Assembly: GCA_022606425.2 (NCBI GenBank)
Contig: JAHDVF020000578.1
Span: 744,001-808,000, forward strand
DNA from: Lepidostoma basale
Taxonomy: Eukaryota; Arthropoda; Insecta; Trichoptera; Lepidostomatidae
DNA: 64,000 nucleotides
Direction: 5' to 3'
Both the position numbers and the translations under genes were made by a program. Each line of letters opens with the position of its first letter. Position 1 is the first letter of the stretch. The notes beneath the pieces were generated by a model. That model had not been told where the DNA came from. It made no database searches and worked only from the letters and a program-made list of their open reading frames with translations. This document shows positions 11,589-56,806 of the stretch, one piece after another.

Positions 11589-11725
11589 GGTATGGTTATT
11601 ATAATTTATGCCAACTAGTTTCGCTTGGAACCAAGCTTCATCAGGGCAGTATAATAACTGTTATTATACTACCCTGGTAAAGCTTGGGTCCAAGCGATAC
11701 TAGTTGGCATCAATTATAATAACAA
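11589..11725. repeat. fold-back with hammerhead-like arms
   Basis: Two arms mirror each other around about 11657. The minus-strand arm, 11606-11651, reads UGCC, CUGAUGA, A, GCUUGG-UU-CCAAGC (a perfect 6-bp stem II), GAAA, the palindrome ACUAGU as stem III, U17, then GGCA, which pairs with the UGCC. The plus-strand arm has decayed (CTGGTAA and GATAC in place of the two core boxes). Confidence 0.7.
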
Positions 11726-32556: not shown

Positions 32557-32870
32557 AAGACGACCTTCGTGGCAGAGTGGTTAGAGCTCTGACTTCCATA
32601 CCGAAGGTTCCGGGTTCGATTCCCGGCGATGGCAGTGTGATTGTCACACTGCCTTTGGTCTGGTGTAGAATTCACGTGACAATAAAATGGCAATAGATTG
32701 GCTACCTATCACATGTCACGAGAATCAATATAATAGCTAAAAAAAAAATGTATTCAGTAATTGGATTCAAACGACCTGTTGTATACATAAAAAAAAAAAA
32801 TTTAAATAATAATAAACATAAAATAAAATAAAATATAAGAATAATTTAATAAAAAAGAAGAAATATAAAA
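32557..32870 (+). mobile_element. tRNA-derived SINE, most complete copy
   Basis: A-box TGGCAGAGTGG at 32570-32580 and B-box GGTTCGATTCC at 32613-32623 form an RNA polymerase III internal promoter. The body has TTCACGTGACAATAAAATGG, CTACCTATCACATGTCACG and CAAACGACCTGTTGTATAC, with an AAATAAAATAAAAT tail. Other copies: 8298, 14235, 56572 (minus) and 57497 (minus). It would depend on a partner LINE for mobility. Confidence 0.85.
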
Positions 32871-37369: not shown

Positions 37370-37480
37370 ATTTTTGCTAAGCTTTTGACTAGAAGATGAC
37401 AGTAAGCTGCCGAAACCAGTCGACGTTAAATACAAGTGTAAGCACACTAAATATATAATAATAATAAATTATATAAATAT
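37370..37480 (+). repeat. GAAACCGG-type fold-back relic
   Basis: GACTAGAAGATGACAG, TAAGCTGCCGAAACCAGTC. Relatives at 1355-1400 and 60610-60680 share 'GAAGATGGCAGC' and 'GCTGCCGAAACCGGT', so GGCAG and CTGCC can pair as a stem. Confidence 0.5.
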
Positions 37481-40135: not shown

Positions 40136-40559
40136 TATGAACAAAATAATGAAATAGTCGTTAAGAAGGTTCAAACAAATGAAAAGAGCATTAGAAATTT
40201 AAATGAAAAATTAATCTTTCTCGTAATTTCATTTTTGTCTTATTTTACAAGGTTCAAATCATCTTTAAAGCCAATTAAAAAAATAACGATTCTCTCGACA
40301 ATTATAGTGGTATTACCCCTTAATATAATATACACGTACAACTCTTCAAGTGGTGCGTGTGATTAGAAGTACAATACTGATAGTTATATGCTTCGTTTCA
40401 ATACTTAAGGGTTGTAAACAGAAATCCACTGAAACTTAAATCCTATGAAAAACAATTTCGCTTTCATTCATTGTTTGCCATTAACAAATCATTATTTATT
40501 TATTTTATTATTTTAAACTATCTAAAAAGTGTACACAACAAACACTTTATTAAAAAATA

Positions 40560-40605
40560 AAAACCAAACATGTTTCGGACACACAAACCCTTCATCAGTG
40601 ATATT
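40560..40605 (-). ncRNA. hammerhead-like motif
   Basis: Minus strand: stem I 5' strand AAUAUCA, core CUGAUGA (plus 40592-40598), an extra A, stem II GGGU/GUCC with G-U pairs, GAAA, stem III ACAUGU, U17, then UGGUUUU. Stem I has about four pairs. One extra base precedes stem II compared with the textbook core. Confidence 0.5.
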
Positions 40606-41043
40606 ATATTAATATAACAAAAAATAAATAATTTTCACGAAAGTAAGTGGTCAGTTTTGACAGATATTAAAATGATTTATTTCGGAAGGTTTATGCTTTT
40701 CTTATAACAAATATTGCGAATAAATTTAATATAATAATTTTAAGTTCTTGTTGGGGTCCAGGTATTGTCTTTCAACAAAGGAAACAAATCAAGTATTGGA
40801 CTTGGCGTTAAATTTATTTAATTATTAAAATAATTTCTTCATTTTTTTTTTCTTTTTTAATTTCAAAAATTTCGAGAGTGATCAGTGCTATATTACTTTT
40901 ATTACCATGCAAAATTTCACTGCCCTTTTTTTTATTCAGAATATTTGTTATAACAAAAACATAAACGAAATAAATCTTTTTAATATCTGTAGAAAACTGA
41001 CCACATTCGTGAATTTTATTTTAAATATTTGTTATATTTATAT

Positions 41044-41089
41044 AATATCACTGATGAAAGGCTCGTGTGTCCGAAACATGTTTGATTTT
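41044..41089 (+). ncRNA. hammerhead-like motif
   Basis: AAUAUCA, CUGAUGA (41051-41057), a weakened stem II, GAAA (41073-41076), palindromic ACAUGU, U17, UGAUUUU. Stem I pairs at positions 1-4 and 6-7. Probably impaired by stem II mutations. Confidence 0.5.
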
Positions 41090-41195
41090 TAATTTTAATT
41101 TTTTAATAAAGTGTGTGTTGTATACCTACAAAGTATATTTAAAAAAAAGAAACATTAAGCATCCGCAACACAAAGTTATGGCGAATATAGAAGAC

Positions 41196-42404: not shown

Positions 42405-42565
42405 GACATGTTTCGCCCTTCTAAGGCATTATAAAATGACATCTGATAATGGCTTAGTAGGGCGAAACATGTAATTCTCATAAAATATAATAAAACTTCT
42501 AGAAAACTGACGTTTTTATTCATATTAATTATTTAATTTGGAGTTTTACATCATCAAGAAACAAT

Positions 42566-42652
42566 AAATACTTTTATTACATAATTAATACGAATGAAAA
42601 CATCAGTTTTCTAGAAGTTTTATTATATTTTATGGGAAAGACATGTTTCGTT
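42566..42652. repeat. second MITE-1 left arm
   Basis: TAATTAATACGAATG, TTTTCTAGAAGTTTTATTAT and GACATGTTTCG, directly after the previous copy. The right half is absent. Confidence 0.75.
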
Positions 42653-49387: not shown

Positions 49388-49625
49388 AATTTCTTCTATA
49401 TTCGCCTTCATGTTTGTGTTGTGGATTCATATTTGAATAAATAAAATTACATTTGGTATTATAACACTTTATTTCACTTAACACAGGCATGTTTTGGTTA
49501 TAACATAACCTTTATCAATGTACACAATTTTAGCATTTTACACTGATAAAGGTTATGTTATAACCGAAACATGTTTGTATTAAGTGAAATAAAGTGTTGT
49601 AATACAAAGTGTAATTATATTTCTT
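49388..49625. repeat. fold-back with GGUUAU-type stem II
   Basis: Leader TTCTTCTATATTCGCC, then mirrored arms AACACTTTATTTCACTTAA and TTAAGTGAAATAAAGTGTT. The plus-strand apex module is 49539-49579. The minus-strand one (49485-49515) has lost GAAAC (now CAAAAC). Confidence 0.75.
49539..49579 (+). ncRNA. hammerhead-like motif with G8 changed
   Basis: UACA, CUGAUAA (49543-49549), A, GGUUAU-GUU-AUAACC (perfect 6-bp stem II), GAAA (49566-49569), palindromic ACAUGU, U17, UGUA pairing with UACA. The core differs from CUGAUGA at the catalytic G8, so activity is doubtful. Confidence 0.5.
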
Positions 49626-53622: not shown

Positions 53623-54070
53623 TACAACAACAACAACCACGTCATTTCCCCGCAGGGGTGGTCAGAAAGAACGGACCGCCACACTACTCTATCCTGAAAC
53701 ACCTTTCTGCCTTCTTCACATTCATACAATTTCCGACTTCTTACATGACCAATTTCTTACGTGACCAACTTTAAAATTTGATTAATTTGGTTATGCCGTA
53801 TTTTCCTCGGTCTACATCGACTCCGTACTCCATTCACATCGTTAACGTATAAGTTCTTTACCATTCTTTCTCCATCCATGCGCTCCATATGTCCGAACCA
53901 ACGCAGCGATCCTTTCATAATTTTATTCATAATACCTCATTCCGCTCTACATTCCTTTTTTATGTCATCATTTGAAATTCGGTCGTACATCGTTCTATTA
54001 CACATACGTCTAAGGGACCTCATCTCTACCGCATTTATTCTGCTCTCATCCTTCTTATGCCAGTTTGTTT
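53623..54070 (-). mobile_element. LINE-B2 3' fragment, GTT-tailed
   Basis: ACAACAACAACAACCACGTC tail, then the tail region up to 'TGCCAGTTTG', the GSEAW-side segment. Duplicated text ACATGACCAA/ACGTGACCAA near 53745-53770. Confidence 0.85.
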
Positions 54071-54330
54071 CCAATAACTATTTTTAAAATTTTATTATCT
54101 TAGTTACCCACACCAATCCTTTTTTCGACGTCACTATCCGTTCGGCCATCCGCTGTGAACATGCTACCTTAATACACTTAATATAATACTTTTTAAATTT
54201 TCTGAAATGTATTTAGGATTTCTTCTATGTTCGCCATAACTTTGGGTTGTAAACGTTTAATGTTTCTTTTTTTATATACCTACTTAGTATACAAAACCCT
54301 CTCTTTATTAAAAAAATAAAATATAATTTA

Positions 54331-54376
54331 AATACCAAACCTGTTTCGGACTAACCAGCCCTTCATCAGTGATATT
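54331..54376 (-). ncRNA. hammerhead-like motif, full stem I
   Basis: Minus strand: AAUAUCA, CUGAUGA (plus 54363-54369), A, GGGCU-GGUU-AGUCC (5-bp stem II with one G-U), GAAA, ACAGGU (only the outer two pairs form), U17, UGGUAUU. Stem I pairs over 7 bp with one G-U. One extra A lies between core and stem II. Confidence 0.6.
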
Positions 54377-54525
54377 ATAAAAATATATAATAAATATTTT
54401 AAAAAATATTTTTTTTTACAAATGTGTTTAGTTTTGACAGATAATAGATTTAATGTCTAATATATTTTTTTAACATCTGTCAAAACTTACCACATTTGAC
54501 CACATTTGAATATGTATATTTATAT

Positions 54526-54571
54526 AATATCACTGATGAAGATCTGGTTAGTCCGAAACATGTTTGATATT
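54526..54571 (+). ncRNA. hammerhead-like motif, perfect 7-bp stem I
   Basis: AAUAUCA (54526-54532), CUGAUGA (54533-54539), extra A, stem II GAU/GUC with drifted inner part, GAAA (54555-54558), palindromic ACAUGU (54558-54563), U17 at 54564, then UGAUAUU (54565-54571), the exact complement of the first strand. The palindromic stem III suits dimer formation. Predicted cleavage is after 54564. Confidence 0.65.
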
Positions 54572-54699
54572 TTAATTTTTTTTTTTTTTTTTTATATAAA
54601 GTGAGTGTTGTATACTAAATATATAAAAAAAGAGACAGTATTAAGATTATTTATAGAAAAGTCCATTACTTTGGCCGAAACACTATGAGACTTTAACAT

Positions 54700-54840
54700 T
54701 ATAAACTGCTAAGTTAATAAACTTTGTTTTATGTATCGCAATTGTATCTTTATATTTCGCGACAGCAGTTTCGTCAACATCATCAGGTGTAAATAAAAAT
54801 ACAATTGTGATACATAAAACAAAGTTTTTTTCATTTAACA
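54700..54840 (-). repeat. fold-back, second hammerhead-like type
   Basis: Mirrored arms AAACTTTGTTTTATGTATCG and ACATAAAACAAAGTTT. The minus strand at 54755-54787 reads CUGAUGA, UGUUGAC, GAAAC, UGCU, GUC. The GUC is in place, but stem I does not pair well. Related to 37150-37200. Confidence 0.5.
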
Positions 54841-55125
54841 GATAATTTATAGTGTTAATGATTTTTTTGTATGAACTTATATTAATTAACAAGATAAGTA
54901 ATAAAGCAGCTGAATTTTGCCTACGTGAAAGCTGTAAAGAATAAAATATTATGGTGGATTCGTTGCAGATTTCGCAGAAAGATAGTTAACTCCCGTGTGT
55001 TCCTTGCTTAACCAATATTTGTTGAACATAATGTGTTTACTGTAAACGTGAATTTAATAATGTTTTTCTTTACACATACTGTGGAGTTACAACTTTTTTT
55101 TTCATTTTCGTAGACTGCAGAAAAG
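54841..55125. other. unassigned
   Basis: Nothing recognised. Confidence 0.3.
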
Positions 55126-56571: not shown

Positions 56572-56806
56572 TTTGTTGATACAACAAGTCGTTTGAACCC
56601 AATTACTGCATACGACTTATTTTAGCAATTATTATTGTCTCATGACATATGACAGGTAACTAATCTATCTCCATTTTATTGTCATGTGAAATCTTAGATT
56701 CAGATCAAAGACAATATGACAATTACACTGCCATCGCCGGGAATCGAACCCAGGACCTTCGGTGTGGCAGTCATAGTTCTTACCACTCTTCCGTGAAGGT
56801 TGTCAA
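56572..56806 (-). mobile_element. tRNA-derived SINE, minus strand
   Basis: Read on the minus strand: ACCTTCACGGAAGAGTGGTA, B box GGTTCGATTCCC (plus 56740-56751), TTTGATCTGAATCTAAG and AACGACTTGTTGTATC. Same family as 32557-32870. Confidence 0.85.

Follow-up and report, generated by a model that had tools for sequence, protein, structure and literature searches.

Two hammerhead-like motifs face each other in a fold-back at positions 54331-54571 of the window, the 64,000-nt stretch of Lepidostoma basale DNA analyzed here, and the locus thus raises the question of whether it holds a pair of ribozymes working together or belongs to a mobile element of a described kind. Inspection of the sequence bears out the preliminary description as to the CUGAUGA and GAAA held by both arms, their coordinates and the pairing of stem I. 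In the plus unit, the stem I strands AATATCA (54526-54532) and TGATATT (54565-54571) enclose CTGATGA (54533-54539), an extra A (54540), GAAA (54555-54558) and U17 (54564), and stem II has two mismatches, A-C and U-U. In the minus unit, stem I comprises 7 bp including one G-U, and the 5-bp stem II reported for it, GGGCU/AGUCC, is confirmed. The pair had been called near-complete, which holds for both cores but neither for the plus stem II, with 3/5 pairs, nor for the minus stem III hexamer, ACAGGU, which is not self-complementary; the self-complementary stem III suited to dimers is likewise supported by the plus unit (ACAUGU) but not by the minus one. The arms do differ while stem I still pairs, yet their sole difference there is one change from A-U to G-U, so that no covariation exists within the pair. 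Each of the two copies is damaged, one (plus) in stem II and the other (minus) in the stem III palindrome, and as ribozymes both are probably weak or dead. Their motifs lie on opposite strands and never form two ribozymes in one transcript; a transcript of the locus would hold one motif and its complement, and a long hairpin would be favoured over the ribozyme fold.

Table 1. Positions of the fold-back insertion, its parts and the other motif copies in the window (R1 is a model trained on motif units from this genome)
Feature	Position	Strand	Remarks
Whole fold-back insertion	54218-54640 (423 bp)	-	Limits taken from the inverted repeats, the tail and a comparison of arm ends among copies; the end with the tail lies at 54218 (minus-strand reading)
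Tail, 39 nt	54218-54256	-	Contains ATG GCG AAC ATA GAA GAA, with which an open frame would start; exact tail motif at 54221-54243
Tail-bearing arm	about 54257-54387	-	83% alike to the other arm
Minus unit	54331-54376, read 54376 down to 54331	-	Core intact; stem II 5 bp; R1 54.7 bits (training-set member)
Inverted arm without tail	54515-54640	+	Inverted repeat; end by comparison with copies
Plus unit	54526-54571	+	Core intact; stem II 3/5 pairs; stem III ACAUGU; R1 51.4 bits (training-set member)
Second opposed pair, inverted-arm unit, family A	40558-40607	-	R1 52.4 bits, outside training set
Second opposed pair, tail-bearing-arm unit, family A	41042-41091	+	R1 45.3 bits, outside training set; tail motif 41172-41194
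Family B unit	49534-49584	+	Core CTGATAA; stem II GGUUAU/AUAACC; in 198-bp palindrome
Family C unit	11604-11653	-	Stem II GCUUGG/CCAAGC; stem III ACUAGU; in 135-bp palindrome
Related unit found by R1	37381-37430	+	29.3 bits, E 2.5e-5; outside training set

The motif is not confined to this locus. The pattern CTGATGA-N1-21-GAAAC matches six times in the window against a shuffle mean of 0.15, and 0 of 100 shuffles reach six. In the whole genome from which the window comes (769 Mb, 1572 contigs), the core pattern CTGANGAN{11,18}GAAACNNGT (CTGANGA-N11-18-GAAACNNGT), which sets the core and the outermost two pairs of stem III while leaving stems I and II free, has 32,908 matches versus 59 for the reversed pattern, a 558-fold excess. 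Details were read from the first 100 listed places, and partners were swapped among the first 30 loci by position. Among these 30 loci, picked by core and position alone, stem I forms 4.6 of 7 pairs versus 3.22 after swapping, and the stem II run reaches 3.2 bp versus 1.79, with 0 of 1000 swaps as high in either case. No stem II of at least 3 bp is seen at any offset in 21 of the 100 listed places; of 73 distinct inserts, 42 have a stem II of at least four pairs, the swapped mean being 13 and the maximum 24. The stem II arms of the listed places read GGAC/GUCC, GCUC/GAGC, GCUU/AAGC, GGAG/CUCC, GGGA/UCCC and GCCU/AGGC, and the type GGUU/AACC occurs in the window. An alignment of 23 units has 80% of its cells paired versus 56% when shuffled, but these units were hand-picked from 103, themselves kept from 168 for pairing, and because of this preselection the case rests on the 30-locus and 100-place tests. 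The covariation of stems I and II that the preliminary description had named as a check is present across the families, as the swap controls show, and supports the hammerhead-type architecture. Core position 7 is free in the genome's units, as it is in hammerheads, and the core CUGANGA and GAAA stand in a three-way junction except in family F, which reads CUGUCGA, with core position 6 changed, at 5 of 5 loci and in young elements. Control loci from prokaryotic contigs (pattern CTGATGAN{8,24}CGAAACATGTTT, 17 loci) show stem I of at least 4 bp in 1/17, stem II of at least 3 bp in 1/17 and both in 0/17, and their best R1 score is 19.4 bits (E 0.037). A pattern scan of IMG/VR gave two loci, both of one phage-like coding repeat and neither a relative.

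The extra A between core and stem II had been regarded as the weak point of the pair, yet A or U stands directly after CTGANGA in 99 of the 100 listed places, which makes the extra nucleotide a constant of the families seen. Stem II does not begin directly after A9, where a hammerhead would have it: a stem of at least 4 bp lies at offset one in 69 of the 100 listed places, at offset zero in one and at offset two in none. When G is placed right after CTGANGA and C before GAAAC, just 313 matches are found in the genome, and in many of the listed places of this pattern G looks like the extra base. Since known hammerhead alignments tolerate insertions of one or two nucleotides (PMC10085705), the additional position is compatible with activity. 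Of the 100 listed places, 86 have a self-complementary stem III centre, in three main types (AU 61, CG 20, UA 5), a count inflated by kinship and obtained with two stem III pairs imposed by the search pattern. Judged from its sequence, the motif is a minimal type I hammerhead with an extra nucleotide between A9 and stem II, its stem III being two base pairs closed by the self-complementary hexamer ACnnGU, and that stem would be stable as a dimer only, if at all.

The other computational check that had been named, a search with the Rfam covariance models, turned out negative: no hammerhead was found in the window at the gathering score, or, at E ≤ 10, in 54000-54900 and in six loci. The model from this genome's own motif, R1, scores well, although its training set included both 54-kb units and came partly from families F and G; the second window pair, outside that set, receives 52.4 and 45.3 bits. 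The remaining Rfam matches, mostly of microRNA models on palindromes, look like chance. The sole Rfam match in the window is a weak tRNA (31.9 bits, 32563-32634), and a tRNA-like stretch at about 56720-56790 resembles it, which suggests a tRNA-derived SINE. A further motif (54752-54795, minus strand, R1 20.4 bits) lies in the loop of a palindrome, 54693-54858, that adjoins the pair. Family D, for example at 42405-42580, is a palindromic repeat that BLAST places in 33 pieces over the window, with a hammerhead-like character; its core reads TTGATAA or CTGATAA (positions 3 and 8 are both altered in many copies), its stem II is kept and its stem I is weak, and it is probably a relic.

The opposed arrangement is no special two-ribozyme device and consists instead of inverted terminal repeats of a kind already described for Penelope elements. 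The insertion is a decayed, non-coding Penelope-like fold-back in which two terminal-repeat pieces stand head to head, one of them with a fixed 3' tail. The open frame that the tail begins is absent from the insertion, and a Pfam search of ten open frames of the window found no reverse transcriptase and no GIY-YIG, with one DUF4817. The insertion has no clear target duplication, the longest stretch common to both flanks being 6 nt, and the flanks of the second window pair have 7 nt in common.

The 241-bp query spanning both units gave 1725 first-look candidates in the genome, of which 40 places were scored and 39 fetched, the window's own being omitted, and 40 of 40 match the query on both strands. 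With up to 6 mismatches allowed, the tail AAAGTTATGGCGAATATAGAAGA is found in 31 of the 39 fetched copies and at the two window loci; L050 is the one exception to its restriction to a single strand. Its end is a nearly fixed point beyond which the flanks diverge, and the other arm often ends at GAAACATTAA, directly before the tail (judged by eye and uncounted, e.g. L027, L031, L034 and L037). Flank repeats of at least 9 nt, variable in length, accompany 15 of 32 family-A loci versus 15% of swapped pairs. A tail on one arm, a 3' end fixed inside the start of an open frame and target duplications together speak for a target-primed retroelement and against a DNA transposon. No coding copy beginning with the family-A tail was found in the genome loci examined, and family A itself can be linked to Penelope by its layout.

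The arms of this family are much damaged. The core is intact in 48 of 82 arms, 30 of the 82 possess every feature, and both arms do so at 5 of 41 loci. The cut-site nucleotide H17 is other than G in 81 of 82 arms, and core positions diverge less than their surroundings (5.7% vs 12.7%), a difference given no weight because the latter are of low complexity. As to whether the arms are remade at each insertion, a comparison at the 41 loci minus L054 and L057 placed 7 of 78 arms closest to their own partner, against 1 expected, and revealed no majority sites specific to one arm; the loci had been collected with a query that spanned both arms and fixed their spacing. L042, L050 and L074 were considered as composites of family A and a LINE 3' end, a proposal given up on the evidence of L042, where the junction letters are those of a 13-nt flank repeat; L042 is more likely an insertion into a LINE repeat. 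In all three, family-A-type tails join one point of an abundant LINE-like 3' repeat, which suggests a preferred target.

The coding counterpart is found in other families. At least 62 matches to GIY-YIG (PF01541) exist in the genome, 150 of 542 candidates having been scored, and ten loci were hand-picked. The hammerhead-type motif is present at nine of these ten fetched loci, four of them with young inverted repeats and opposed motifs, which, together with a layout as published for Penelope, supports the association with these elements that had been suggested. L115, a copy of family F, has one open frame of 758 residues with RVT_1 (302-478) followed by GIY-YIG (651-734), the domain order of Penelope. 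Among the homologues listed for this frame, those with a named organism are from insects, and the best of them, which belongs to the moth Phthorimaea, has both domains too. The frame is flanked by 456-nt inverted repeats, 99% complementary, each with an outward-pointing motif. Three further loci of family F, L117, L118 and L120, have a fold-back form in which the motifs are opposed and the arms agree at 97.5-99.5%, and in these three and L115 the intact tail stands on one strand only, the ATG lying 66 nt after the predicted cut. Terminal repeats with a one-sided frame-start tail are thus found in family A as well as in these four loci, and target-site duplication is seen in the family-A set and, with 12 bp, in L117, L118 and L120; L115 sits in an AT repeat and is uninformative in this respect. 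The left flank of L120 reads GAAACATGTTGAGA, which resembles the 3' half of another hammerhead motif. L119 has a single motif and lacks the intact tail. L121-L124 form a separate group in which GIY-YIG was the domain read, both domains being read in L115, and in which a family G motif lies downstream of the domain, exact in its core in two loci and altered in L122 and L124. The locus without a motif, L116 (G000:C102), is a 1.64-Mb contig with a long-frame GIY-YIG match; its frames, which we take to resemble bacterial ones, belong to what is possibly a symbiont or an assembly contaminant.

CChMVd is a plant viroid, not a retroelement, and its hammerhead has a full stem III. With the motif described here, its plus-strand hammerhead has in common an unpaired A after A9 (PMC3705267). 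Minimal type I hammerheads with a palindromic stem III and dimer cleavage have been described in the pLTRs of Penelope elements (PMC7761336, PMC6466107). These small hammerheads (Cervera and de la Pena 2014; Lunse, Weinberg and Breaker 2017, via the same two citing papers) agree with those of L. basale in having a stem III that is short or absent, with a palindromic loop, in their place in terminal repeats, in their thousands of copies and in cleavage as dimers, which for L. basale is a prediction; as presented in the citing papers they are tandem, whereas close same-family neighbours in L. basale are inverted, and the extra nucleotide, constant in L. basale, is possibly a further difference (PMC7761336, PMC6466107). 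The Penelope elements of Adineta vaga have an inverted pLTR, a 31-bp tail that includes the first codons, an inverted copy that is shorter by 37 bp, target duplications of 9-10 bp and head-to-head palindromes, a layout the same as that of the L. basale elements, and their fold-back copies have been proposed to be self-primed on antisense templates (PMC3846280). A literature search showed no mention of hammerheads in that paper, and family A differs in being without a coding part. In the Anolis element PAc, as in family F, the hammerhead lies near the start of the open frame, and reverse transcription begins inside the element near there; the PAc motif, however, overlaps the start codon, while the predicted cut of family F lies 66 nt upstream, and hammerhead mutants of PAc still insert in vitro, the motif cutting only with protein (PMC11167929). 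Metazoan retrozymes are likewise non-coding, similar in size, equipped with type I hammerheads and high in copy number, and the hammerheads of the axolotl exceed 100,000 copies; but retrozymes are direct tandem repeats (PMC7229834), whereas family A has inverted arms and a tail of the Penelope type and family G forms an array of inverted pairs in L045. This array, at L045:927-1350, comprises three opposed family G pairs, 141-172 nt apart on the minus strand. A literature search found no paper joining hammerhead, Penelope and Lepidoptera, nor any title on inverted hammerhead pairs, which is weak evidence of novelty, subscription papers being thinly covered.

The insertion is likely to be an old non-coding copy of a Penelope-like element whose progenitors used the motif to cut their transcripts. 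Such transcripts would be cut after H17, slightly upstream of the open frame, so that a read-through or tandem transcript is shortened to one unit. With so short a stem III a single motif would not suffice, and cutting would call for either the pairing of two motifs through ACnnGU or assistance by the protein of the element. The next step would be reverse transcription from a point in the tail that lies barely within the open frame, and self-priming would account for the fold-back copies. The core change of family F, the damaged family-A arms, the Rfam miss and the lack of a coding copy with the family-A tail among the loci examined count against this reading. In view of the defects of these two families, and of the Anolis mutants that insert and the protein-dependent Anolis cut, cutting in this genome is put forward here as a prediction. 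That the same element carries a motif that no longer has to cut, a conserved structure of the terminal repeats derived from a hammerhead and turned over to protein binding, the start of reverse transcription or promoter function, is unlikely, though it draws on the young age of family F, whose core is changed, and on the normal insertion in vitro of the PAc mutants (PMC11167929). It sits poorly with the recurrence of CTGANGA and GAAA among very different stems, with a hexamer centre that stays self-complementary and with the near-absence of G at H17 in family A.

Very little probability is given to the view, close to that of the preliminary description, that both strands of the fold-back yield self-cutting RNAs that act together. 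Opposed neighbours do recur, since same-family pairs less than 2 kb apart among the 100 listed places stand in the order minus, plus in 10 of 10 cases, and the L045 array repeats the arrangement; but plus and minus transcripts, complementary to each other along about 120 nt, would pair into a duplex, each would hold one motif and its complement, and in the window one arm is without stem II and the other without the hexamer. A fold-back DNA transposon (MITE) with a palindrome merely like a hammerhead would account for the long inverted repeats, the absence of coding sequence and the palindromic family D with its weak stem I, and is nevertheless highly implausible given the one-arm tail, the 3' end fixed in an open-frame start, the flank repeats of varying length and the same layout at loci coding for reverse transcriptase and GIY-YIG. 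Chance resemblance, which has the Rfam miss and nothing else in its favour, is scarcely conceivable against the 558-fold excess and the swap controls.

The kind of motif is known, and what sets it apart here is the constant extra core nucleotide and tens of thousands of copies in one genome, missed by standard models. With roughly 33,000 core matches, six or more stem families and an extra nucleotide near-constant among the 100 listed places, the genome offers a natural library of motifs in which the role of Penelope hammerheads becomes testable by statistics and by mapping of RNA ends, and the Rfam hammerhead models overlook this L. basale set. It is a bolder and rather doubtful idea that, through inverted pLTRs, Penelope elements possess hammerheads on both strands, so that transcripts of either sense are cut to unit length, and that these dimer-dependent motifs with their extra nucleotide form a separate, very large ribozyme class missed by the models; if true, cutting on two strands could supply the missing step for the antisense-template priming proposed for fold-back copies (PMC3846280).
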